From Prevotella sp. (lineage in GTDB: Bacteria; Bacteroidota; Bacteroidia; Bacteroidales; Dysgonomonadaceae): a DNA stretch of 40,782 nucleotides. The first letter of the stretch is position 1. The number at the start of each line of letters is the position of its first letter. The translations under genes and the position numbers were made by a program. The stretch spans positions 1 through 40,782 of the forward strand of contig JAITVH010000053.1 in NCBI GenBank assembly GCA_031285905.1. Reading direction: 5' to 3'. A model generated the notes under the pieces. The model was given only the letters and a program-made list of their open reading frames with translations. It had not been told where the DNA came from and ran no database searches. Below, in pieces: positions 24,293 to 37,629 of this stretch.

Positions 24293-24393
24293 TGTGTGCA
24301 TTATAATAATATGTTGTGTTTAATTTGCAGTTGTTTTCTGCCTTTTTTAAATAAAACAAATTGATTGTAACTGACTTTTTTCAAAACTACCGT

Positions 24394-27051
24394 ATGAAAT
24401 TTCGCGTAATACTGACGATATTAATAATCTTTCCTCTAATAGTGAAAGGACAGGCAGATGTAATATTTTACTCTGAAGGGCCTATGTATGTCAAATACAA
24501 AGAAGGGCAGGATACCGCAACAAAAGGAGAAAAAGAATCTACGACCCTGTATATTCAGGGTTCTGCTAAATTTGCCAATGGATCTGTCGTAGATCAGAAA
24601 GGGCGTACTGAGATTACCCAGGATTTTATAAATGCTAAAGATCCGGCTACAGAAGTAGCTGCAAATAAGCAATTATTTATAAATACAGCAGAAGCCGATC
24701 CGTGGAATACTGGTGTTGTTGCTTTTGTCGGAAAGGGAAATGCTTATGACGATAACGGAACTACGAAATACATGGCTACCCTTCAGCGTATTTATGGGGT
24801 GATACCTTCGGGATCATCTGCAACAATAGAACAACAGAAAACTGATCTATGGATGAAGTTCCCTACAATATCGGTAGAAAAAGGTTTGCCTACTGCTACA
24901 GGAGATGATTGGCGAGATGTGGGATATCTAATGGTCGATCATACAGCTGCTTTATCTGTTTTCAATGTCAATGCACCTAAAGGAGATCGGTTTGCTGTAG
25001 ATGTTGCACTTGATGGAAAGAGACGCATGGTAAGTGGTCATGCCAAAATATATAATACAACAGCTAATACTTATTTGCCGGGATACAGCCAGGTTAACTG
25101 GAATATGTATAATTATAATAAGGCTACTAGCGTAGATGACGGGAAATTTGATAATGCCACTAATAGTGCTGATCCGAGTACACATGATTCTTCCTTGAGG
25201 AATAGTGAAGGATGGAATTATCTGACAGGATTTACTTCTCCATTTGCAGAAATGGGAGCAGACTACTTGTTTTATCATGCTCTAACTAAGCCCAATGGCG
25301 GAAGTATGACATCATATGAGGGGCCGATCGTTAATCCGTTTTACAGATTGCAGAAAGGTGTAGGATATTTCCATAGTATGGAAGTGTCTAATCATGATGA
25401 TACCGAGATAGATCTACGCTGGGATTTTGATGGTGATGGTGGAGGCCCTAAGGGAGTTTACCACGATAAACGAGCCAGAGGTCGTCATATCTTAAACAGA
25501 ATGGTGTTTCTAGATTATCTATCATCTGACCTTGATGATCCTAATAAAATGGGAGACTTTAGTAGGTTTGTACATGGTAATACTGGAGATTACAATGTCA
25601 GTACTGATAATCATCCTTATTTTACAACACGTACGCTTAGAGGAACTAACGATCCAAAATGGATAGATGAAAAAATAGGAGACCGAAGCCGTTATGAAGT
25701 AATCGCGAATGAGAAGTTCAATACGAAGACAGAAAATGGCACGAATATTGAAGTAACTGTAGATCTGAAACATGGTCTTAATTTTCTTGGTAATCCATTT
25801 ATGGCGCCTATCAGTTTAAATCCTCTTTTAGGATATGATGTAAATAAAAATCCAACAGAGACAGATAATGATAAATTTAAAGATGGAGTTTCAATTCCTA
25901 TATTTACTCCTTCGGGAGGCCCTACTGTAACGGTTTCGAGTGAAAGTACGGCAGCTCATCTTCGTTCTAAATATTGGTTAATAAATGAAGCTCTTATCAA
26001 GTATGACAAGTCACAACATCTATTCTTGTATAGAGCAAAATATGATTTTATAAGTAGAGATGGTTCGTCTGCTACTAATACAATAGATCCGTTCACATCG
26101 GAAAATGGAGGGCAAGGTACAGAACTGTATAATATTAATCCGTTGGATTATCGTATAGCACCGATGCAAATGTTTTGTTTGCAGGCAAGCCGTGATGTTA
26201 CTATAAAACTGGATATGGACTTATGTGCATTCGGTAAAACAAACTTTTTGAAGAGTGGAAGTGTAGAAGATGCTGCTGGTGCAGAAGAAATAATGCGTGA
26301 CTGGTTTATTGTAGAAGTTGAGGGACAAAATAAGAGTGTAACGCCTGACAGAACATCTGTAATCTTTAGAGAGGATGCTTATGCTCAGTTTAATGAAGAT
26401 CCATATGATACCAGAAAAGGGTTGACCAAAGAAATTGAAGAATATATTCCTGAGTATAATGGACAACAGACTTTAACAAAAATGACAGCTAGCAGAGGGA
26501 TTGTTTATACCCGTTCCACAGAAGGGATTAATCTGTTAGGTAATGGGGTTCCCCAAAATACTAAAGAGTTGGGATTATATTTTGTGCCTCCGACAGAAAC
26601 ACAGGAAATGACATTACGATTCTATGGATTAGAAAATCTGGAATCAGTGGCAGGTGTATGGTTGATAGACAGGCATTTAAATAATAAGATAGTAAAAATT
26701 GATTCGGATTATGAATATTCATTTGTATCTAATCCTTCAGATTATAGTGATGCCGAAAACGAAAACAGGTTTATTCTTCGTTTCTATGAAACAGATACGG
26801 ACATTATAGGCGGAGAGGATGAAGGCATTACAGCTTATTATAAAGAATCGACTTTATACATAAAAGGACTTAATGAAGAAGATATAAACAGCAGCTTAGA
26901 AATCTATGATATGCAAGGACGCCTTATCGCAAGGACAAAAGTAGATAAGGTTCCGATGGATTATTTTAAACCTTTAAGCTTGGGAACATATATTGTGAAG
27001 ATTTCAGGAAAGAGAAACTTTACATCTAAGTTTGTGAATTTGCGAAACTAA
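24394..27051 (+). CDS. Large exported protein with candidate type IX sorting tail
   Basis: This protein of about 885 aa starts at ATG 24394 with a clean signal peptide (MKFRVILTILIIFPLIVKGQ). The frame upstream to a TTG at 24361 is rejected as start. Most of the chain is beta-rich without catalytic motifs I recognise: DVIFYSEGPMYVKYK, a segment with DLRWDFDGDGGGPKG, and VDLKHGLNFLGNPFMAPISLN. The last 75 residues look like a type A C-terminal sorting domain of the type IX secretion system: a beta-sandwich with STLYIKGL, SLEIYDMQGRLIARTKV, LSLGTYIVKISG and a lysine-rich end KFVNLRN. It would then cross the outer membrane and be attached or released at the surface. A small membrane-anchored partner gene follows by 74 nt. 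Whether this organism has the type IX machinery cannot be judged from the window. Confidence 0.7.
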   Translation: MKFRVILTILIIFPLIVKGQADVIFYSEGPMYVKYKEGQDTATKGEKESTTLYIQGSAKFANGSVVDQKGRTEITQDFINAKDPATEVAANKQLFINTAEADPWNTGVVAFVGKGNAYDDNGTTKYMATLQRIYGVIPSGSSATIEQQKTDLWMKFPTISVEKGLPTATGDDWRDVGYLMVDHTAALSVFNVNAPKGDRFAVDVALDGKRRMVSGHAKIYNTTANTYLPGYSQVNWNMYNYNKATSVDDGKFDNATNSADPSTHDSSLRNSEGWNYLTGFTSPFAEMGADYLFYHALTKPNGGSMTSYEGPIVNPFYRLQKGVGYFHSMEVSNHDDTEIDLRWDFDGDGGGPKGVYHDKRARGRHILNRMVFLDYLSSDLDDPNKMGDFSRFVHGNTGDYNVSTDNHPYFTTRTLRGTNDPKWIDEKIGDRSRYEVIANEKFNTKTENGTNIEVTVDLKHGLNFLGNPFMAPISLNPLLGYDVNKNPTETDNDKFKDGVSIPIFTPSGGPTVTVSSESTAAHLRSKYWLINEALIKYDKSQHLFLYRAKYDFISRDGSSATNTIDPFTSENGGQGTELYNINPLDYRIAPMQMFCLQASRDVTIKLDMDLCAFGKTNFLKSGSVEDAAGAEEIMRDWFIVEVEGQNKSVTPDRTSVIFREDAYAQFNEDPYDTRKGLTKEIEEYIPEYNGQQTLTKMTASRGIVYTRSTEGINLLGNGVPQNTKELGLYFVPPTETQEMTLRFYGLENLESVAGVWLIDRHLNNKIVKIDSDYEYSFVSNPSDYSDAENENRFILRFYETDTDIIGGEDEGITAYYKESTLYIKGLNEEDINSSLEIYDMQGRLIARTKVDKVPMDYFKPLSLGTYIVKISGKRNFTSKFVNLRN

Positions 27052-27794: not shown

Positions 27795-28322
27795 TCATTG
27801 CTTTGCTGTATTATTGGTGATTTCACCTACTCTCTTATCTTTACTGAGTAATTTTGGCTGCGGGACAAACGTTTGTACAGCCACCTCACAATAGGCTATT
27901 TCGGGATAAATAAATTTAGGCCCGTTGATTTTTGCCACAACTCTGGCTTTCAGGTTGACAAACTCTCCAGGATACACCCCCCATTTTTCTATAATGGTTT
28001 TATTTAATTCCAGATTGGAATAGCTTTTCTTAAAGTGATTAATTGTATCGGGATCGGTAGATGCTTCGAAATTGTTGATTGCCATATCTAATCTGAAAAT
28101 GTACATTACGGTATTATACGCAGGCCTGTCAATGCCTTTGTTCCATATGAAGGTGATTACTTCTATTGGATATTCCGATTCTACTAATATTATTGTGTCT
28201 TCCGATGCTGTTAGTTTCAATGGAGTTCCACTGACCTTTTCTTCGTCAGCATCACAACAGGCATTGAAAGTAAGCCCGATGACCAATATTATTAAAAGTA
28301 GTATCTTATATAATGTATTCAT
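27795..28322 (-). CDS. SusE-like outer-membrane lipoprotein
   Basis: This 175-aa protein has a lipoprotein signal peptide ending near FNACCDADEE. A beta-sandwich domain like the N-terminal domain of SusE follows (PLKLTASEDTIILVESEYPIEVITFIWNKGID, YNTVMYIFRLDMAINNF). SusE-type proteins bind glycan at the cell surface next to the SusCD importer. This one has only about one domain, so it is shorter than canonical SusE and its ligand-binding residues cannot be assigned. It is the last gene of the operon, 28 nt after the SusD-like gene. Confidence 0.72.
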   Translation of the reverse strand: MNTLYKILLLIILVIGLTFNACCDADEEKVSGTPLKLTASEDTIILVESEYPIEVITFIWNKGIDRPAYNTVMYIFRLDMAINNFEASTDPDTINHFKKSYSNLELNKTIIEKWGVYPGEFVNLKARVVAKINGPKFIYPEIAYCEVAVQTFVPQPKLLSKDKRVGEITNNTAKQ

Positions 28323-28350
28323 ATTATCATTTTAACAGGTTTTCATCCCA

Positions 28351-30258
28351 TTACCAGTATGGTAATTGTTTCAAATTGAGATTTTTATCCATCTGATTTT
28401 GATGAATAGGCAAGAAATAATTCTTTGTAGAGAATCCACGGGTAATATAAGGCTTTCTTACATAAAAGGCCTTTCCGTTATTAGGATTATCATCTTTTTC
28501 CGTACCATAATAGTTCATTCCATAGTATGGCCCGCTCAGAATATCTATTTCTTTCCAGCGACGTATATCATCATAGCGAATAGCGTATTCACAATTGAAC
28601 TCTACGCGGCGTTCGCGTTTAATGGCTTCTTTCATGGCTTCTTTTCCCTTCGGAGCAGGTATCTGTTCCAATCCATCTCCATAGCCGGGGATTCCAGCCC
28701 TTTCTCTGATAGGGTTGATGTATTTCAATATCTCGGCTGTCTGAGATGGATCTACTTCATTCAGAGCTTCTGCATAGTTTAAATAGGCTTCAGCCAAACG
28801 GTATAATATGCCAGGGCGGTATATGTTTGCATTGGTAGGATCCTGATCAGGGTGTACTCTTTTTCTTAATAAGTATCCGTTTTGAGGTGCATCATGGGTT
28901 GGCCCGCCATCTGCTCCGTTCATATAGAAATTTACATTCTTTTTATATGTACGTAACCATGCTTCATTGTATAGTACCGAGATATAGAAGCGTGGTTCCC
29001 TGTTTACATACATGTTGAATGTTCCGGACGGAGCGACTATGTTGTCTGTCAGATTTTCATCTGCTTCTTTTACACCTTCTTTCCACTTTGTTTTTCTGAT
29101 ATCATCAGCTTGTGAAAATCCTGATTCTGTATTGATAATAGGATTTCCATTTGCACCATAGCCAGTTATAGCCGGTAACCCATTGCTCATGAAAAAAGCA
29201 TCAACCAAGCTTTGGGTAACGCCCAGTCCACCGTTTCCTCTAAATCCGCGAGGTAGCGCATGATTGTTATGCTGGCCATAATTGCATGATGAACGAGCCC
29301 ATAAGATTTCTTTGTTACCGTTCCGAAATTCGGTGAAGGACATGTTCATATATGACTGGAACGGATCAATCGTTCCATCGTCGTTATACTCATGGTATAA
29401 TGCATAACCATTATTGTGAGCCATATCTATCAAGGTTTTGCAAGCTTCTGCCGCACGAACCCATTTTTGGGGGTCATAGGTGGAATTGAAGATTTTTTCA
29501 CCTTTGTTATTTTCCATCTCAATGTATTTGGGATCGGTATTCCCATTAACCAGCGGACTGGCGGCAAACAATAACATTCGTGCCCTCACTGCATGACATG
29601 CTATAGATGTTATTCTTCCATATTTTTGGGTATTGGTGTAGTATGCTGGTAACATTTTGGCTACTTCCTTCAGCTCGTTGTCGATCCAGTTGATAACATC
29701 ATCAAAAGGATTCTGGCCTATCATCAGCGTCTCTGCCGGGTCATTATAGTCAGATAGCCACGTTTGCAACGGAATGGCTCCATACGTGTTTACCAGTAGG
29801 TAATAATAATATGCAACAAGAAAACGGGCTTCTGCTTTCATGAGGTTGACGTCTTCTACTGTAACGTTCTGGTCAGGAAGAGGTTTTACATGTTCCTGAA
29901 AGATTAGAGCAGCACGTATTCTGGTAGGAAGATCTCCCCAGAAATTGCCACTCCATCCTGTTTCAGAATTCCAGTCACCTTTTATTTTGCTGATACAGTC
30001 CCATTCATATACTTCCCATCCTGCAGACGGGGAATAATCGTCAGCATAGGCATCGTAGTTTTTAAGCATAGGAAAATAAGGGTCAGGGATGGCATTATAA
30101 ACACCTGCCAACCAATCTTCTGTTCGTGTTTTATCATTGAACACCATCTCTAAGGTCAGCTGGTCGTCCGGCGATTTGTCCAGAAAGTCGGAACAAGAAC
30201 CGACCAACAGAAGGATGATCAGTGATAAAATTATATATTTAATTATGTTCGAGTTCAT
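28351..30258 (-). CDS. SusD/RagB-family nutrient-binding lipoprotein
   Basis: This 635-aa surface lipoprotein (cysteine in LLVGSCSDFLDKSPDDQLT) is the lid of a SusCD-type importer. Family features are the DFLDKSP start and the TPR-containing N-terminal half (MKAEARFLVAYYYYLLVNTYGAIPL, ACHAVRARMLLFAASPLVNG). The C-terminal SusD domain has YRLAEAYLNYAEALNEV, IKRERRVEFNCEYAIRYDDIRRWKE and NYFLPIHQNQMDKN. Full length. Its gene starts 21 nt after the SusC gene ends. The ligand is unknown. SusCD importers mostly take oligosaccharides, some take peptides. Confidence 0.95.
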   Translation of the reverse strand: MNSNIIKYIILSLIILLLVGSCSDFLDKSPDDQLTLEMVFNDKTRTEDWLAGVYNAIPDPYFPMLKNYDAYADDYSPSAGWEVYEWDCISKIKGDWNSETGWSGNFWGDLPTRIRAALIFQEHVKPLPDQNVTVEDVNLMKAEARFLVAYYYYLLVNTYGAIPLQTWLSDYNDPAETLMIGQNPFDDVINWIDNELKEVAKMLPAYYTNTQKYGRITSIACHAVRARMLLFAASPLVNGNTDPKYIEMENNKGEKIFNSTYDPQKWVRAAEACKTLIDMAHNNGYALYHEYNDDGTIDPFQSYMNMSFTEFRNGNKEILWARSSCNYGQHNNHALPRGFRGNGGLGVTQSLVDAFFMSNGLPAITGYGANGNPIINTESGFSQADDIRKTKWKEGVKEADENLTDNIVAPSGTFNMYVNREPRFYISVLYNEAWLRTYKKNVNFYMNGADGGPTHDAPQNGYLLRKRVHPDQDPTNANIYRPGILYRLAEAYLNYAEALNEVDPSQTAEILKYINPIRERAGIPGYGDGLEQIPAPKGKEAMKEAIKRERRVEFNCEYAIRYDDIRRWKEIDILSGPYYGMNYYGTEKDDNPNNGKAFYVRKPYITRGFSTKNYFLPIHQNQMDKNLNLKQLPYW

Positions 30259-30279
30259 AATACTTTCCTTATTATTTCT

Positions 30280-33200
30280 TTAGAATGTAATTTCTAAGCC
30301 TACAGAGTATGTTTTCATAATCGGATATCTTAATCCATTGTCGTCAGGAGAATCTATTTCAGGATCCCATAGCTTAAACTTGGAAAAGGTGAGAAGATTG
30401 GTTCCCCGTAAAAATATCCTCGCATGGTTGATAGATGCCTGTCTTGTAAGTACTTTGGGAAATGTGTATCCAAATTCTATATTCTTCAACCTCAGCAAAC
30501 TCATATTCTTCAGCCACCAGCTAGAGGTTTTATGATTGTTGGCATTGTACCCATAATGCAATCGGGGATAGAATGCATCGTGCCGGGGATTCTCTATAGT
30601 CCATGCATCCGAAGCATTACTGTATATATTGCCTGTAGTGCCCATATTGGCGCCAGGCAAGAAATCGGTACCACGTCCTATCATCCGGTAAGTGCGTCCG
30701 TTACCCTGAAAGAATAGACCGAAATCAAATCCTTTGTATGTGGTATTCAGTATGAATCCGTATACAATTTCGGGGTTCTTTGTCCCTTTCAAGGCAGTCA
30801 TATCTTTATCTGTTATTTCTCCATCTCCATCCAGATCGACATATTTGATGTCTCCCGGATAAACACGATCACTATATTTGTGTACAGGGATATCATCCTT
30901 TAGTGTCCCGTTTTCGAGGTCAGCGAAATCTTCTTCTGTAAATAATCCGTCTGCTACTAATCCGAAGATTTGATCAACAGGTTTTCCTAATGAAGAACGG
31001 TGTGTCCCTACCTTACCTATATCTTCATCATTCTCGGTCACTTTATTTTTAGCATAGGTTACATTAGCTCTAGCGCTAATGTTCCAATCTTTATTGATCT
31101 GCTTATTGATATCCAAAGCTATTTCAAATCCCTGGTTGGTAACCTTACCAAAGTTTGCCCATGGGGTTTCTGCAAACCCGGCAGAATTAGGGAAGTTATT
31201 ACGCTTCATAAAGATATCTTTCCTTTTTTCCTGGAATACATCGACTTGTAATTCCATAAAATTGAAGAAGCCTAACTCCAGTCCAAAATTTGTTTTTGCA
31301 ACAGTTTCCCATGTTAAATTAGCGACACCGATATCGCCTTCTCTACGCCCATCTCTATGGTAAAAACCGGTTCCGACTCCCCAGTCATATCCTCCGGTGC
31401 TATTTATTGTTGTGATATAGGCAAAGCGCCTGCCTCCGGCTAATTGGTCGTCTCCGGCAAGACCGTGAGATACTCTGAATTTTATTTTGTGGATGGTATT
31501 CCTAATGCCTCTCATAAATGGTTCTTCGGACATGATCCATCCTGCGGAAACAGAAGGAAAAAATCCAAAGCGTTTGCCTTTCGCAAAATTCTCGGAGCCA
31601 TTGTATCCAAAATTGAATTCGCCAATGTAGCATCCTTTCAATGTGTATGAGGCACGACCTGCAAAGCCCTGATGGCGGAAAGGCAATGCTTCGCCTACGT
31701 CATAGTCTGTCTGGTTATATAATAGCAGACCATTGACGGCATGGTCGCCAAATGCATGGTCATAGTTTAAACTGGCTTCCAGATACATACTGTTGTTGCC
31801 CCAATCGTGGGTAGGAACAGTAACCAGAAATTCCTGTCCGATTGATCCGTCAGAGAGATTCAGTTCGCCTGTTTCGGGATTTCTGGTGGTTGCCGGAACA
31901 TAGTATATTGGTGTTTTGTGTCTTCTCACTCCGTTTTGTGAAAGATAATCGTAGGAGAATATTCCTTTGGCTTTTAATCCCTGAGTGATAATTCTTAGAT
32001 CTTGTTCTACAGAAAAAGAAGATTCCAGTTTGCTTTGTGTACTCCTGTCAAATCCCATCTGTGTAGATATTGCCCAAGGGTTACTCCTGTTTATTCGTTG
32101 GGGTATTTTGCCATTTTTGTATATAGTAGGATGCACAAACGGAGGTGTAGAAAATGCTTGCGAAAATATGTAATCGATCCCCTCTTCGTGTGCCGGGGCT
32201 ACTCTTCGCTGCAAATATCCTCCTATATTGAATCTCAATAGCGTGGAGGGAGTGATGTCCATATCGACATTTGAACGCATATTGAAACGATTGATGCGCA
32301 AGCTCGAGTCCCAAGATTGGTTTTTGTCTCTTTTCATTATCCCGTCTTCATGGAAATATGCTGCAACAAAGGAGTAGCGCAGTTTTTCCGTACCACCGCT
32401 GATATCTAGCGATACCCGGGTGTTGTTAGCTTGGTTTTTCGTTAATTCTTTCACCCAGTTTACATCCGGATATAGTTCTTCATCGTACCGGGTTCTGAAC
32501 ATGTTTATATACTCCTCGTTGTATGCCGATTGGGCACCATCCTGTATGGCAAGGTCTCTTACCAGTTGCAGATAATCTACCGAGTTCAGAAATTCCGGTA
32601 ATTTTACAGGCTGACTGACAGAGTGCTCAGCTTTTATGTTAATCACTGTTCTGCCTACTTTCCCTCTTTTGGTGGTAACCAGTATCACCCCGTTGGCTCC
32701 CCGCACTCCATATATTGCACTGGCAGCAGCGTCTTTTAATACAGAGAATGTTTCTATCTCATTTATATCGATGTTATTGATCGACCTTTCTATACCGTCT
32801 ACCAGAACTAGTGGTGTCCTGTTTGGCCCGAAAGTATTAATACCCCGAATCCAGAATTCCGAATTATCGTATCCGGGTTCCCCCGAACGTTGTACCCCGA
32901 TTATGCCGGCTACATTTCCGGCCAGATTATTACTCAGCGAGCGGGTGGTACCCATATTTAATTGTCTCGGGGTTATAGTTGTGATAGCCCCTACTACAGA
33001 CTCTTTCTTTTGTGTGCCATATCCTACTACTATGACTTCTTCTAACTGGCCAACATCTTCTTGTAATATAATATTGATGATTTTTCTTTCGCCAATGGTT
33101 TCTTCTCTAGCTATAAATCCTACATATCTGTATTCGAGTACACTATATTTTGGTTCGTCTACACTAATAATATAGTTCCCATCAGTGTCTGTTATCACAC

Positions 33201-33633
33201 CTATGGTTGGATTATCTTTCAACCTGACGGTGACTCCTATAAGTGGTTCCCCCTTCATATCTGTCACATTTCCCTTCACATAGAACTTGTCTGCTAGCAA
33301 AGAGGTGGGATGCGACGTGTTTTCACTTGCATCCTTTTGAGATATGAATATCTGTCTGTCAGATATTTTGTAGATGTTCCCTGTATTTTCGAATAATTTA
33401 TCCAAGATTTTATCTATAGTCTTATTTTCTACGTTTATAGACACCACTCTTTTGCTATCCAGCGTTTCATCATTATATAAGAATATATACTCACCTTTTT
33501 TCTCTATCTCTGTGAAGACCTCTTTTATTGTTTTGTTCTTCAAATTGAGGCTCAAAGATATAGTCTGTGAATAACTGTTATGAGCAAAAGAAATACCCAT
33601 CATAAGAATGAGAAAAAATGTCGTAAGCTTCAT
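30280..33633 (-). CDS. SusC/RagA-family TonB-linked outer-membrane importer with STN domain
   Basis: This 1117-aa TonB-dependent transporter has a signal peptide (ending NSYSQ). An STN domain (about 25-100, LNLKNKTIKEVFTEIEKKGEYIFLY) and a carboxypeptidase-like regulatory domain (FYVKGNVTDMKGEPLIGVTV, about 118-200) come next. The TonB-box region is EEVIVVGYGTQKKE, followed by the plug (NLAGNVAGIIGVQ, ASAIYGVRGANGVILVTTKRG) and a 22-strand barrel ending in VGLEITF. The STN domain is the part that signals to FecR-type anti-sigma factors, and the upstream sigma/anti-sigma pair fits this. It forms the channel for the SusD lid encoded next. Antisense signals lie between its start and the anti-sigma gene (33693-33786). 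Confidence 0.96.
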   Translation of the reverse strand: MKLTTFFLILMMGISFAHNSYSQTISLSLNLKNKTIKEVFTEIEKKGEYIFLYNDETLDSKRVVSINVENKTIDKILDKLFENTGNIYKISDRQIFISQKDASENTSHPTSLLADKFYVKGNVTDMKGEPLIGVTVRLKDNPTIGVITDTDGNYIISVDEPKYSVLEYRYVGFIAREETIGERKIINIILQEDVGQLEEVIVVGYGTQKKESVVGAITTITPRQLNMGTTRSLSNNLAGNVAGIIGVQRSGEPGYDNSEFWIRGINTFGPNRTPLVLVDGIERSINNIDINEIETFSVLKDAAASAIYGVRGANGVILVTTKRGKVGRTVINIKAEHSVSQPVKLPEFLNSVDYLQLVRDLAIQDGAQSAYNEEYINMFRTRYDEELYPDVNWVKELTKNQANNTRVSLDISGGTEKLRYSFVAAYFHEDGIMKRDKNQSWDSSLRINRFNMRSNVDMDITPSTLLRFNIGGYLQRRVAPAHEEGIDYIFSQAFSTPPFVHPTIYKNGKIPQRINRSNPWAISTQMGFDRSTQSKLESSFSVEQDLRIITQGLKAKGIFSYDYLSQNGVRRHKTPIYYVPATTRNPETGELNLSDGSIGQEFLVTVPTHDWGNNSMYLEASLNYDHAFGDHAVNGLLLYNQTDYDVGEALPFRHQGFAGRASYTLKGCYIGEFNFGYNGSENFAKGKRFGFFPSVSAGWIMSEEPFMRGIRNTIHKIKFRVSHGLAGDDQLAGGRRFAYITTINSTGGYDWGVGTGFYHRDGRREGDIGVANLTWETVAKTNFGLELGFFNFMELQVDVFQEKRKDIFMKRNNFPNSAGFAETPWANFGKVTNQGFEIALDINKQINKDWNISARANVTYAKNKVTENDEDIGKVGTHRSSLGKPVDQIFGLVADGLFTEEDFADLENGTLKDDIPVHKYSDRVYPGDIKYVDLDGDGEITDKDMTALKGTKNPEIVYGFILNTTYKGFDFGLFFQGNGRTYRMIGRGTDFLPGANMGTTGNIYSNASDAWTIENPRHDAFYPRLHYGYNANNHKTSSWWLKNMSLLRLKNIEFGYTFPKVLTRQASINHARIFLRGTNLLTFSKFKLWDPEIDSPDDNGLRYPIMKTYSVGLEITF

Positions 33634-33692
33634 AGTCAGGAGTGCTACTCTAGTATTAGCATTATTTTAAACTGAGTCTGTTATTTTTTTCA

Positions 33693-33786
33693 TACTTTTG
33701 TAATGATTTATTGGTTAACATTATACAACATATTGACTAATTAGATCATTGACCGGATGGTGTTTGGCGATGTCATCCGGTTTTTT
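33693..33786 (+). ncRNA. Candidate cis-antisense small RNA upstream of susC
   Basis: A plus-strand -7 box TACTTTTG (33693-33700) is followed 52 nt later by a Rho-independent terminator: ACCGGATG (33752-33759) pairs perfectly with CATCCGGT (33774-33781), then six T end at 33786. Transcription would give an RNA of about 80 nt (near 33707-33786) running against the sigma/anti-sigma to SusC leader. No plus-strand protein gene exists there to explain the terminator. Such antisense RNAs near SusC genes of sigma-regulated polysaccharide loci are known in Bacteroides. No clear -33 element is visible. Confidence 0.5.
33752..33786 (+). terminator. Plus-strand terminator between anti-sigma gene and susC
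   Basis: A perfect 8-bp GC-rich stem (ACCGGATG/CATCCGGT), 14-nt loop and six T (33781-33786). The T-tract is on the plus strand only. For the minus-strand anti-sigma gene the hairpin would be followed by CAATGATC, so it is a poor terminator in that direction. Confidence 0.75.
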
Positions 33787-33820
33787 GATTCCTGTACATC
33801 TGCGATTCTTCCCGAAGAAG

Positions 33821-35044
33821 TCACATCTGTTTTCGGGTTATATGGTAATTTTCATTTTCATTATTTATTTTGATAGGGAAGGAGAATGCCAACCCGTTTA
33901 ATACATCTGTGAGGTCATCTTTCAAATCCATCTTGCCGGAACACTTGAGGCTGGCTATACGGTCGTCGAATGTGATGCTGGTTCCATAGTATCTGGATAA
34001 CCTTTTCATTATAGCATCTAATCTTTCGCTATCGAAATAGTATATGCCGTCTTTCCATGAGGTATATTTGATAAGGTCTACTTTTGATATGTTTGTCTTT
34101 CCATTGTTATATTGGTACATTTCGGATGGCTTCAGGATTATGCCTTTTCCATTATCTTTATCGTTCGACAATATTTTTACCGACCCTTCTGCAAGGGTAA
34201 TCTGCTTATTATCGTCATCGTCGTAAGCCATCACATTAAATTGCGTGCCAAGAACCTGAATGTCAACTTGGGATGTTTTTACCACGAACGGGTGATGTGT
34301 ATCATGGTGTACGTCAAGATACGCTTCTCCATTGATATAGATGGTTCTTGTTTTTTCCGTAAACTCGACCGGATAGGATACTATTGTTCCTGAGTTTACA
34401 TATAGAAATGTACCATCGGATAACCTGAGTGTCGAACGTCTGCCCTTTGGTACCATCAACTGATGATATGCAGCGGATTTAGGCTCTTTACGTATGGTTT
34501 CTTTATCCGATATTATTATTTCGGCAGAGTCATATACTATGCTGGATTCTTTGTGGTCGAACCTTACTAACAATACCAGTTGTATGTCGGTCAGGCTGTC
34601 TAACGAGACAGGGTAGTTGTTGTCTACATATGTGAGGAATTCTTTTTCCTGTAGTTTTTGGGTGTCCGGCTTAAGAAAGGGAATGCTCATGAAAATCGCC
34701 GCTATTCCGGCTGCTACTCCTATCGCAATATATAATCGTTTTCTTATCCGTTGTTTTGCCTTAAGCTTATTTCTGGTAATAGAGACAGATATATTGTTCC
34801 AGAGGGATGATATATCTTCATCCGAAACCAGATTGTTTATATCCGAGGCTGATTTTATAAGGAAGGCTTTTGCTTCTTCAAAATCTTTTTCGTTGATCTT
34901 CTTATTCCTCAGCGTGTCTTCCCAAAATGCTGATGATTCTTCATTCGGACTGGTGACCGAGGATATGAAAAAATCATCCTGAAGAAAGTCTTCAAAAGTA
35001 TGATTGGAATAGTCCCTGTCAGAATGTCTATTATGGCTTATCAT
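33821..35044 (-). CDS. FecR-family anti-sigma factor
   Basis: This 407-aa protein has a cytoplasmic N-terminal part (about 1-100) that binds the sigma factor and one membrane helix (RLYIAIGVAAGIAAIFMSIPFL, about 104-125). A periplasmic FecR domain follows (LMVPKGRRSTLRLSDGTFLYVNSGTIVSYPVEF, GEAYLDVHHDTHHPFVVKTSQVDIQVLGTQFNV). The C-terminal DUF4974-like domain (SERLDAIMKRLSRYYGTSITFDD) is the part that touches the STN domain of the SusC partner. It is 38 nt after the sigma gene and precedes susC, the usual order for a transport-sensing cascade. Confidence 0.95.
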   Translation of the reverse strand: MISHNRHSDRDYSNHTFEDFLQDDFFISSVTSPNEESSAFWEDTLRNKKINEKDFEEAKAFLIKSASDINNLVSDEDISSLWNNISVSITRNKLKAKQRIRKRLYIAIGVAAGIAAIFMSIPFLKPDTQKLQEKEFLTYVDNNYPVSLDSLTDIQLVLLVRFDHKESSIVYDSAEIIISDKETIRKEPKSAAYHQLMVPKGRRSTLRLSDGTFLYVNSGTIVSYPVEFTEKTRTIYINGEAYLDVHHDTHHPFVVKTSQVDIQVLGTQFNVMAYDDDDNKQITLAEGSVKILSNDKDNGKGIILKPSEMYQYNNGKTNISKVDLIKYTSWKDGIYYFDSERLDAIMKRLSRYYGTSITFDDRIASLKCSGKMDLKDDLTDVLNGLAFSFPIKINNENENYHITRKQM

Positions 35045-35082
35045 AGTGATAGTATAAATGCTTTTCTGTAGAAAGGACTATC

Positions 35083-35673
35083 TCATCTATAATTTATACT
35101 CACTTTTTTGCTTTTTTTTATAAAATCTCTTATTTTTTTTATCGACCGTTGGAGTAGGTTTTGCACCGATTGGTAATTCATCGCCATCAGGTCGCTTATT
35201 TCATCGATGCTCATCGATTCTATAAAGCGGTAATATACAACCTCTTTCTGGCGGATGGTGAGTATGGATAATATTTCCTTGATAAAGTAATCCTGCCGCG
35301 ATTCTGTCTCTATGCGGATGAAGTCTTCCTCCACTGTTTTATAATCGGATGTGTTGGTGGTGCCTTCATCCAATTCGTCTATCCATATCTTTTGTTTTTT
35401 CAGGGCTGTTATGATGCTGTTTCTAAGCGCAACGAAGAGGTAGACTTTCAGGTTTTGTACAGGTTTCAGGTTCGCCCTGTTATCGTATATCTTTACAAAT
35501 ATATCGTGAATACAGTCTTTTACAAATTCTTTGTCAGATGAGAATTGTAACCCCTGGGCTATGAGATTTCTGGCATATTTTTCGTAAATATGGCAAAAAG
35601 CGTCATCGTCTCCTGCTAAAAAGCGATTCCACAATGAATTATCATGATCACTATCTCTTCTTATTATAAACAT
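35083..35673 (-). CDS. ECF RNA polymerase sigma factor
   Basis: This 196-aa ECF sigma factor contains region 2 (FCHIYEKYARNLIAQ, VKDCIHDIFVKIYDN) and region 4 (LTIRQKEVVYYRFIESMSIDEISDLMAMNYQSVQNLLQRSIKKI). It should drive the adjacent SusCDE operon once released from the FecR-type protein. The gene heads the cluster and has a -7-like box at 35691-35698 on its own strand. Confidence 0.95.
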   Translation of the reverse strand: MFIIRRDSDHDNSLWNRFLAGDDDAFCHIYEKYARNLIAQGLQFSSDKEFVKDCIHDIFVKIYDNRANLKPVQNLKVYLFVALRNSIITALKKQKIWIDELDEGTTNTSDYKTVEEDFIRIETESRQDYFIKEILSILTIRQKEVVYYRFIESMSIDEISDLMAMNYQSVQNLLQRSIKKIRDFIKKSKKVSINYR

Positions 35674-35948: not shown

Positions 35949-36752
35949 TTATAATCCTAGCTTTGCCTTTAGGTTGCGGTATCCGGCTTGGCTGATCTTT
36001 ATGTGTGTGCCGTCTTTTAGCTTTAGTAACTGACTTTGCTTGTCGAAAAGTTCGATCTGTGCAATAAAGTTGACATTGATAATGTTAGAGCGATGAATGC
36101 GGACGAATCTATCGGAAGGCAGGGTACTTTCCAGTGACTTCATAGTTTGCTCTTTCAAAAATTTGCCTTTCAGGGAATATATCATCACATAATCGCCTTC
36201 GGCCTGTATATGTACAATTTCTGAGATTGGTATGATTTCTATTTTTTGTCCGCTCTTTACGGTTATGCGTTCTACTATTTCCGGGATGGTAGATGTTTCC
36301 TTATTTTCGATTTTCGGATAGTCCTTCTCCATATTTATAGCCTCGTCGTCGGCTTCCTCCTCTTTACTGTAAATAATCTTGATTAGTATATATATAAGGA
36401 TGGCTATCGCTACCTTGAACGGAATAATGGTGAGAAGCATATTCCATTCATTGGTATCAAAAATAGTGTAGATGATAAGATATTCAACTCCCAGCCAGCA
36501 TATGACAAATAGGATAGCTAACGCTATTGTATTGATAATTTGCTGGCGGAAGTGAAGTAATGATGAATATGTATATTTTACAATGTTTTTTAAGATGAAA
36601 ATCAAGCCTGACAATATTACTCCCGATATGGCTACATCGGTAATGATAACCGACTGATTGATATCCAGTACAGGTTTTGTACATATATATAATACTAGAG
36701 CGGTAGCAATTGCAATAAAGATATGTATGTATATCAAGCGTTGATTTTCCAT
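35949..36752 (-). CDS. Membrane-anchored LytTR-domain transcriptional regulator
   Basis: This 267-aa protein has four N-terminal membrane helices (about 8-135: LIYIHIFIAIATALVLYI, VAISGVILSGLIFIL, TIALAILFVICWLGVEYLIIY, IPFKVAIAILIYILIKII). An acidic linker and a C-terminal LytTR DNA-binding domain (about 165-267) follow, with VERITVKSGQKIEIIPISEIVHIQAEGDYVMIYS and RIHRSNIINVNFIAQIE. It has no response-regulator receiver domain, so it may sense a membrane or ligand signal directly. It follows the LiaF-like gene by 12 nt, suggesting one transcript. Targets are unknown. Autoregulation is a common theme for LytTR pairs. Confidence 0.88.
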   Translation of the reverse strand: MENQRLIYIHIFIAIATALVLYICTKPVLDINQSVIITDVAISGVILSGLIFILKNIVKYTYSSLLHFRQQIINTIALAILFVICWLGVEYLIIYTIFDTNEWNMLLTIIPFKVAIAILIYILIKIIYSKEEEADDEAINMEKDYPKIENKETSTIPEIVERITVKSGQKIEIIPISEIVHIQAEGDYVMIYSLKGKFLKEQTMKSLESTLPSDRFVRIHRSNIINVNFIAQIELFDKQSQLLKLKDGTHIKISQAGYRNLKAKLGL

Positions 36753-36764
36753 TATCCGATTATA

Positions 36765-37574
36765 TTAGTTCTTTATTTCACCGCCTCCAAACATTGCGCT
36801 GCCTTTTACAATCAGTCTCGGAGCATTACTTTGGGGCATTTCACGGTGATGACGTTTGTCTTCGAATGACCCAAAGATACTACTACTCTTCAACTCTATA
36901 GCCCAATCATCAGGCACATACAAAACTATGCTTCCAAACATAACATTAAGCTCCAGTTGGTTTATCCCGTCAGCTAATTTAGCTTTCCGTAAATCTATTA
37001 TCAATTCGCCAAACATAATGTTTCCTTCTCCGCCTTTGAAATTGTCGGACAATACGATTTGATGCGAACTGCCAAACATTTTATTCTTGTCTATATAATC
37101 GGTGTCACTGAAGTTGGTACCGTTTGTTTGATCTCTGTCAGCGGCAGTCCATTCATGTCTTTCATTAATATGAAAATTCGTATTTTTTGAGGATGTTCTT
37201 TTAAAGATCAATATTACTCCTACCACAACTAATAATATAGGCCAGTATGTCCTGATGTCGATGCTTATACAACTCAGGTATTCAGGAAACAAGTGGCATA
37301 GTTTAGGATAGATAAAGAAGCCCCCTATCAATATTAATATTATGCCTGATGTGATATTCCTTTTTATCAGAGACCACAGCCCTATCACAATCAGCAGCAT
37401 TTGCCATGATATAAGTATAGGTTTGTAATCTCGAGGAATAATACCCAGATTGAATAATAGCAAGATGACTCCAAAGAGTACCAGAAAAAGAGCGAAGCCT
37501 ATCGCACCTCTGTCATGATAACTTCTCCCTCTTTTTAATAAGTCGTTTTTGTTAGTATCGGTTTCCATATTCAT
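36765..37574 (-). CDS. LiaF-like membrane protein (DUF5668 plus LiaF C-terminal domain)
   Basis: This protein of about 269 aa uses the ATG at 37574 (an ATG at 37568 is also possible). The frame extends upstream to a TTG at 37601, but that lies in the -7 box. The membrane part has about four helices (GFALFLVLFGVILLLFNLGII, SWQMLLIVIGLWSLI, SGIILILIGGFFIY, YWPILLVVVGVILIF) as in DUF5668/LiaF N-terminal regions. The C-terminal beta-helical part has FGSSHQIVLSDNFKGGEGNIMFGELIIDLRKA and repeated FGS/MFG turns, like the LiaF/VraT cell-envelope stress domain. Such proteins often control LytTR or two-component regulators. The LytTR gene follows by 12 nt, so an envelope-stress sensor/regulator pair is inferred. 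Confidence 0.85.
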   Translation of the reverse strand: MNMETDTNKNDLLKRGRSYHDRGAIGFALFLVLFGVILLLFNLGIIPRDYKPILISWQMLLIVIGLWSLIKRNITSGIILILIGGFFIYPKLCHLFPEYLSCISIDIRTYWPILLVVVGVILIFKRTSSKNTNFHINERHEWTAADRDQTNGTNFSDTDYIDKNKMFGSSHQIVLSDNFKGGEGNIMFGELIIDLRKAKLADGINQLELNVMFGSIVLYVPDDWAIELKSSSIFGSFEDKRHHREMPQSNAPRLIVKGSAMFGGGEIKN

Positions 37575-37598
37575 AGATGTTTTAATTTGTTCGTATAG

Positions 37599-37629
37599 CA
37601 AAAGTAGATGCTATGTTTGCTAATTACAA
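37599..37629 (-). promoter_or_regulatory. Promoter of the LiaF-like/LytTR operon
   Basis: On the minus strand TACTTTTG (37606-37599) fits TAnnTTTG, with TTG at 37629-37627 exactly 20 nt upstream as the -33 element. It is one of the two best matches to the two-part Bacteroidetes promoter in the window, and it sets the ATG at 37574 rather than the TTG at 37601 as start. The rest of 37630-37874 is AT-rich and holds the unidentified ecotin promoter. Confidence 0.65.

Follow-up and report, generated by a model that had tools for sequence, protein, structure and literature searches.

A putative structured antisense RNA at the SusC start codon, conserved at SusC/FecR junctions beyond the order of its host

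In the passages of earlier reports on which we draw here, the antisense RNAs of the DonS family are given a length of 78-128 nt (PMC7366714), 15 PULs of B. fragilis are stated to carry DonS-type RNAs (PMC9723704), and 32 PUL-associated asRNAs are described for B. thetaiotaomicron (PMC10994844). According to the same kind of excerpts, DonS represses its PUL by a mechanism described as unknown (PMC11697453), the DonS-like pairs of B. thetaiotaomicron are anti-correlated with susC in some cases and positively correlated in others (PMC10994844), and part of the antisense RNAs could represent noise (PMC7366714). Another small RNA, FopS of B. thetaiotaomicron, prevents translation of SusC by pairing beside the start codon and is stated to be deposited in Rfam (PMC11697453, in the part consulted).

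The window, i.e. the whole stretch of 40,782 nucleotides analysed here, comes from a draft genome of 173 contigs that is 88% complete and 6% contaminated. A first-pass annotation, made from the letters alone, had placed in it, opposite the sigma, anti-sigma and SusC genes, a plus-strand TAnnTTTG box followed by a terminator with a T-tract on that strand only and with no protein gene between, and had read these as an RNA of about 80 nt. All these elements were recovered, the three genes being supported on the minus strand by Pfam and NCBIfam, and the RNA predicted from box and terminator coming to about 83 nt. The features are as follows.

27795..28322, minus strand: SusE-like protein (Pfam SusE)
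28351..30258, minus strand: SusD-like protein (Pfam SusD_RagB)
30280..33633, minus strand: SusC/RagA TonB-linked receptor with STN domain, the presumed target (Pfam, NCBIfam TIGR04056)
33667..33693, minus strand: ATG overlapping the -7 box and opening the short frame MKKITDSV, then a stop (sequence reading)
33693..33700, plus strand: -7 box TACTTTTG, of the TAnnTTTG type (primary sigma), from the sequence
33704..33748, plus strand: 5' stem-loop of the predicted RNA (computed fold; covariation on the model-fitted alignment)
33705..33787, plus strand: predicted antisense RNA, about 83 nt (box spacing, terminator, model matches)
33751..33786, plus strand: intrinsic terminator, hairpin and T-tract on this strand only (terminator scan; covariation)
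33821..35044, minus strand: FecR-type anti-sigma factor (Pfam FecR, FecR_C)
35083..35673, minus strand: ECF sigma factor (Pfam Sigma70_r2 and r4; NCBIfam sigma70-ECF over cut-off)

No glycoside hydrolase was found among the neighbouring proteins scanned around 27795-35673, so that calling this a polysaccharide locus is an assumption. Further out, the region upstream of the sigma gene encodes a LytTR regulator and, beside it, a LiaF-like membrane protein (35949-37601, minus strand), and an 896-aa protein is encoded at 24361-27051 (plus strand), whose sole recognised part is a type IX secretion sorting tail.

The predicted +1 of the RNA, G33705, is set by placing the -7 box at -12 to -5, a spacing taken from the consulted part of PMC9723704, and its 3' end is taken from the terminator, whose stem (33751-33782, plus strand) has 14 pairs and a loop of 4 and is followed by T's to 33786, the hairpin being followed by no T-tract on the minus strand. 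No ORF of at least 20 aa lies wholly within 33705-33787, and two plus-strand ORFs (38 and 50 aa) begin in the hairpin region and extend past the RNA. The plus-strand RNA 33704-33787 is predicted to form the 5' stem-loop followed by the terminator, with a folding energy of -24.6 kcal/mol and a z of -3.75, which none of 200 shuffles equalled. A generic scan of the window yields 8 terminator-like sites where 6.6 would be expected, and 36 sites of the sigma-70 type where the expectation is 36.7, the pattern alone thus being not above chance, and the case for the RNA therefore rests on comparison and conservation: chance as the origin of the site, which the generic scan alone leaves open, is ruled out by the conservation described below.

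The copy in the window is atypical, in that the ATG overlapping the box opens 8 codons only and in that no candidate susC promoter motif is present. The SusC frame begins at 33633, 60 nt further in, so that the RNA would end 72 nt rather than 12 nt away from the start. Mutation and assembly error are indistinguishable as the origin of the early stop after MKKITDSV, and a similar early stop occurs in L054, from another genome.

A DNA search of 61 genomes gave matches in 10, the own genome included. By reading, the whole site is present in the loci of six other genomes (L002-L005, L007, L009); of the remaining matches, L006 runs into a contig end, L008 is arranged differently, and L010 is a 29-base match at a SusC start with no recognised FecR in the 2.8 kb covered. 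A first covariance model, R1, made from seven sequences and used with a cut-off of E up to 0.01, gave 37 matches in 18 of the 25 genomes of the genus (own included) and none in the other 7. A second model, R2, was built from 31 full matches (30 of the 37 of R1, and L005) and one 30-base fragment; in the window, both models match 33690-33787. With R2, at E up to 0.001 and with the own genome counted each time, matches were obtained in the family (81 of 101 genomes), in the order sample (41 of 393) and in the phylum sample (7 of 296); these three large searches were run with stricter filters and with 10-42 candidates scored per genome, for which reason absence in them means little. The third model, R3, was made from 27 sequences starting after the -7 box and hence contains neither box nor start codon, the near-duplicates L057 and L052 and the long variants L053 and L065 being left out. 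It matches 33702-33787 in the window and gave 72 matches in 25 of 25 genomes, these having been chosen among R2-positive ones. A search for paralogues in the own genome gave, besides the window, only matches at E 5.0 and 8.0 (R1) and 7.3 (R3), and a search of the plasmid collection gave no match.

A sigma-factor scan of genome contigs provided 19 loci, by name mostly from Cytophagales, in 7 of which a total of 8 R2 matches were obtained at E up to 1; when genomes were searched from these sigma-factor loci, seven of nine were without a match at E 0.01. A Prolixibacteraceae MAG carries 16 matches, and Prolixibacter bellariivorans ATCC BAA-1284, a named species represented by a culture-collection strain, carries 2 (E 0.006-0.007).

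The surroundings of these matches were examined with profiles of FecR and of the SusC N-terminus made from the seven seed loci. Both proteins were recognised in 25 of the 29 genus loci (L037-L065, five of which are seed loci again), the exceptions comprising L048 and L052, cut at contig ends, and L049, without a recognised FecR. In the fourth, L065, stops interrupt the SusC frame, while the RNA site next to it looks intact. Among the family and order loci (L066-L111, best matches only, L067 repeating a seed site and L100 belonging to the genus), both were recognised in 42 of 46; L093, L095 and L109 are cut, and L081 is without a recognised FecR. The SusC frame of L096 starts at a distance of about 450 nt. 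L104 shows a broken SusC frame beside an intact-looking RNA site. In the phylum search, both were found in 10 of 11 loci, the other being L179, from the order of the host, with neither, and 9 of these 10 belong to a single family, represented by five genomes, of a different order within the class. The two genomes reached through named records, i.e. the Prolixibacteraceae MAG and P. bellariivorans, have both proteins at 18 of 18 matches (E 1.7e-4 to 0.007). In the same line, SusC and FecR flank the newly fetched R3 loci, with the RNA antisense, in 28 of 28 cases, although several of them are places that R2 had found, so that the outcome is a test of the model more than an addition of loci. Judged from these matches, the predicted antisense element extends beyond the order of the host, within the class. 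The comparison with related genomes that the first-pass annotation had proposed thus shows box, hairpin and terminator recurring at the same intergenic spot, and a short antisense RNA gene at the SusC start is very probably real.

The fold itself points to the strand on which selection acts. In the model-fitted alignment, two-sided changes occur in 27 of the 27 modelled pairs, including 13 of 13 in the 5' stem, 90.3% of the cells are paired, and covariation scores 0.62, compared with 0.08-0.18 when the partners are slid. On the alignment of 27 that was not fitted to the model, 11 of 11 predicted terminator pairs show two-sided changes, and RNAalifold does not recover the 5' stem. One could also imagine that the conserved hairpin is an element of the SusC mRNA leader on the minus strand, such as an attenuator or a protein site, a reading to which we give hardly any credence. 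It would be in keeping with the minus strand folding somewhat better than shuffles, both in the window (z -2.41) and in the 5' part folded alone (mean z -0.78; 18 of 31 below -1), for which the plus strand gives a mean z of -2.5 with 29 of 31 below -1, these 5'-part scores being partly circular since the loci were found with a model holding that stem. However, selection on a plus-strand RNA predicts an excess of G-U over A-C, and the pair cells contain 105 G-U and 8 A-C, besides 618 Watson-Crick and 71 other (fragment dropped), while the unfitted table of the terminator contains 30 and 3, respectively (manual count). Furthermore, the plus strand of the whole RNA is more stable than the minus strand in 31 of 31 copies, and the T-tract and the TAnnTTTG box are found on the plus strand only. 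On these comparative grounds, selection acts on the fold of the antisense strand, the terminator stem being under selection and the 5' stem likewise, though less firmly.

The position of the promoter is equally constant. All 31 aligned copies carry CAT, the reversed ATG, at positions 2-4 of the model, which means that the -7 box shares a base with an ATG in the SusC direction, and the aligned relatives have a TAnnTTTG-type box at the same place, a few with single-base departures. Over the stretch read, the frame from this ATG is free of stops in 28 of 31 copies (L052 being counted with only 11 readable codons), and the exceptions are the window after MKKITDSV, L054 after ten codons, and L065 with its stops. 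Since R1 and R2 contain the positions of box and ATG, R3 offers the fair test of the upstream box, and CATAnnTTTG lies just upstream in 23 of 28 R3 loci even though this model lacks the box, one of the five misses, L168, being unscored because the locus is cut. The RNA would accordingly be expected to have its first base some 12 nt upstream of the conserved ATG, and from there upstream to be complementary to the SusC leader. According to the consulted part of PMC7366714, adenines in the stretch from -11 to -15 favour translation in Bacteroidetes, and the predicted RNA start falls within that stretch.

On the far side of the RNA, an exact CATAGGC (GCCTATG on the SusC strand) is found 13-57 nt beyond the end of the match in 37 of 67 loci among L005-L110, compared with a mean of 0.03 and a maximum of 1 in 200 shuffled rounds and with none in the opposite orientation; cut loci (L048, L093, L095, L109), irregular ones (L066, L073, L074, L101, L111) and L067, the same site as L005, had been dropped before the count. 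This motif is a candidate for the ECF-sigma promoter element of this type of SusC/FecR locus, and as a promoter it would place the SusC leader across the whole RNA. No clear alignment of an upstream half of the SusC promoter was obtained among the loci. In the window, the best site has two mismatches to CATAGGC, which leaves the SusC 5' end unplaced there and makes the overlap with the leader an inferred one.

With such a geometry, the antisense promoter sits in the path of SusC transcription, and in the CATAGGC relatives the presumed promoters face each other across roughly 100-150 bp (an inferred distance). Both facts would suit transcriptional interference, in which converging polymerases collide and the RNA product is incidental. 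We consider this unlikely, as the two-sided changes in the fold and the plus-biased wobble indicate a selected RNA product, and as the terminator, which lies before the presumed SusC promoter, restricts how far the antisense polymerase can travel and favours an action of the RNA over promoter blocking.

The conserved site may also be more widespread than the models detect. A survey of 33 FecR-SusC junctions, made of four from the own genome and of 30 of 126 FecR matches in six genomes, L125 being left out as it has no SusC, revealed an antisense terminator at 25 and a sense one at 9, the mononucleotide-shuffled control giving a mean of 5.6 and a maximum of 10 in 20 rounds. At 12 of the 33, TAnnTTTG begins on the base pairing with the A of the SusC ATG, in the same register as in the model copies (according to the script indices). 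At least five junctions are already model matches (L033, L127, L128, L135, L137); the terminators and boxes outside the model matches make it likely that more divergent relatives of the antisense RNA exist. The other three FecR loci of the own genome show box and antisense terminator (L030), terminator (L032) and neither (L031), and L030 and L032 are perhaps among these relatives. In Cytophagales, four Dyadobacter loci have weak R2 matches (E 0.08-0.15), at the junction in L014 and L015 and across the beginning of the longest SusC frame in L011 and L012, suggesting a more divergent version in that group; L023 (E 0.008) and L025 (E 0.03) lie at the junction too.

Taken together, these data make it probable that the site encodes a short structured cis-antisense RNA limiting expression of the SusC operon. 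In the model that we propose, the antisense RNA would be driven by a promoter of the housekeeping type, the -7 box of which overlaps the place of the SusC start codon. As long as the sigma factor is held by its anti-sigma factor, this RNA would pair with stray SusC leaders, thereby blocking ribosome entry or promoting decay of the leader. Once the sigma factor is released, SusC transcription would pass through the antisense promoter and out-titrate the antisense RNA, the outcome being an expression threshold set separately for each locus. Such locus-specific action is what the computed duplexes would lead one to expect, cognate pairs (mean -134 kcal/mol for 19 RNAs, with full complementarity by construction) being far stronger than non-cognate pairs within a genome (mean -37 kcal/mol; 34 pairs, 7 genomes). 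The latter nevertheless exceed shuffled ones (-19 kcal/mol), as might be seen if the RNA acted in trans on other targets and its cis position were historical. That reading seems very improbable to us given the far stronger cognate pairing, even if full complementarity must give it, and given that nearly every fetched match keeps the SusC/FecR junction.

A broader proposal, which we put forward tentatively, is that one family of structured antisense RNAs, of which DonS would be an instance, runs through much of the class, with its promoter locked into the SusC start codon and with its own mutual-exclusion threshold switch at each such ECF-sigma/SusC locus. If this were true, SusC translation start and antisense transcription would share the same bases, and selection would maintain the threshold switch as a fold of the RNA, specific to the leader of its own locus. 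In any case, the common fold with its covariation support and the constant arrangement (the promoter within the start codon, the RNA upstream of it over the presumed leader and the terminator short of the presumed SusC promoter) make the mechanism of DonS-type repression directly testable, and the models find such predicted RNAs in genomes without RNA data, for example that of P. bellariivorans ATCC BAA-1284. From the comparison of genomes, the element looks like a widespread built-in brake of the kind known from Bacteroides.

As regards the known systems, ECF sigma and anti-sigma factors as neighbours are a mark of the DonS-type class, and both are present at the window locus. Classical cis-antisense RNAs, such as plasmid copy-number regulators, are likewise structured and lie over the leader of their target, but they have other targets and occur in other phyla than the window RNA. 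The latter resembles the DonS-type RNAs in lying at the 5' side of a susC homologue, divergently to it, and in its predicted length of about 83 nt, inside the 78-128 nt range given in the consulted part of PMC7366714; it differs by the organism and by the lack of a glycoside hydrolase found beside the locus, and its putative kinship to DonS is judged from descriptions of the class. With FopS it would share the design of a short, terminator-ended RNA antagonising SusC translation beside the start codon, whereas FopS uses a single-stranded 5' seed to act in trans and has RbpB as a binding protein (PMC11697453, in the part consulted), and the window RNA has a predicted 5' stem and cis pairing. 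The covariance search with known PUL antisense RNAs that the first-pass annotation had proposed was made against Rfam 15 and gave no match over the window at gathering scores; in a low-stringency search (E up to 10), only rseX, Six3os1_1 and P31 came up, at E 1.5-7.4 and far below gathering scores, and membership in a known Rfam family was rejected. In titles and abstract openings, neither a common covariance model nor a promoter embedded in the start codon was found described for DonS-type RNAs; the founding paper of the class, Cao et al. 2016, may contain part of this. The class being already known, the reading of the window RNA as a further DonS-type member, which the first-pass annotation had advanced, is supported by description: orientation, size, terminator and sigma/anti-sigma neighbours fit, and the comparison shows conservation of the element as an RNA of the antisense strand. 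What the present analysis adds to that class is a shared fold, a promoter lying within the start codon and a range that extends past the order.
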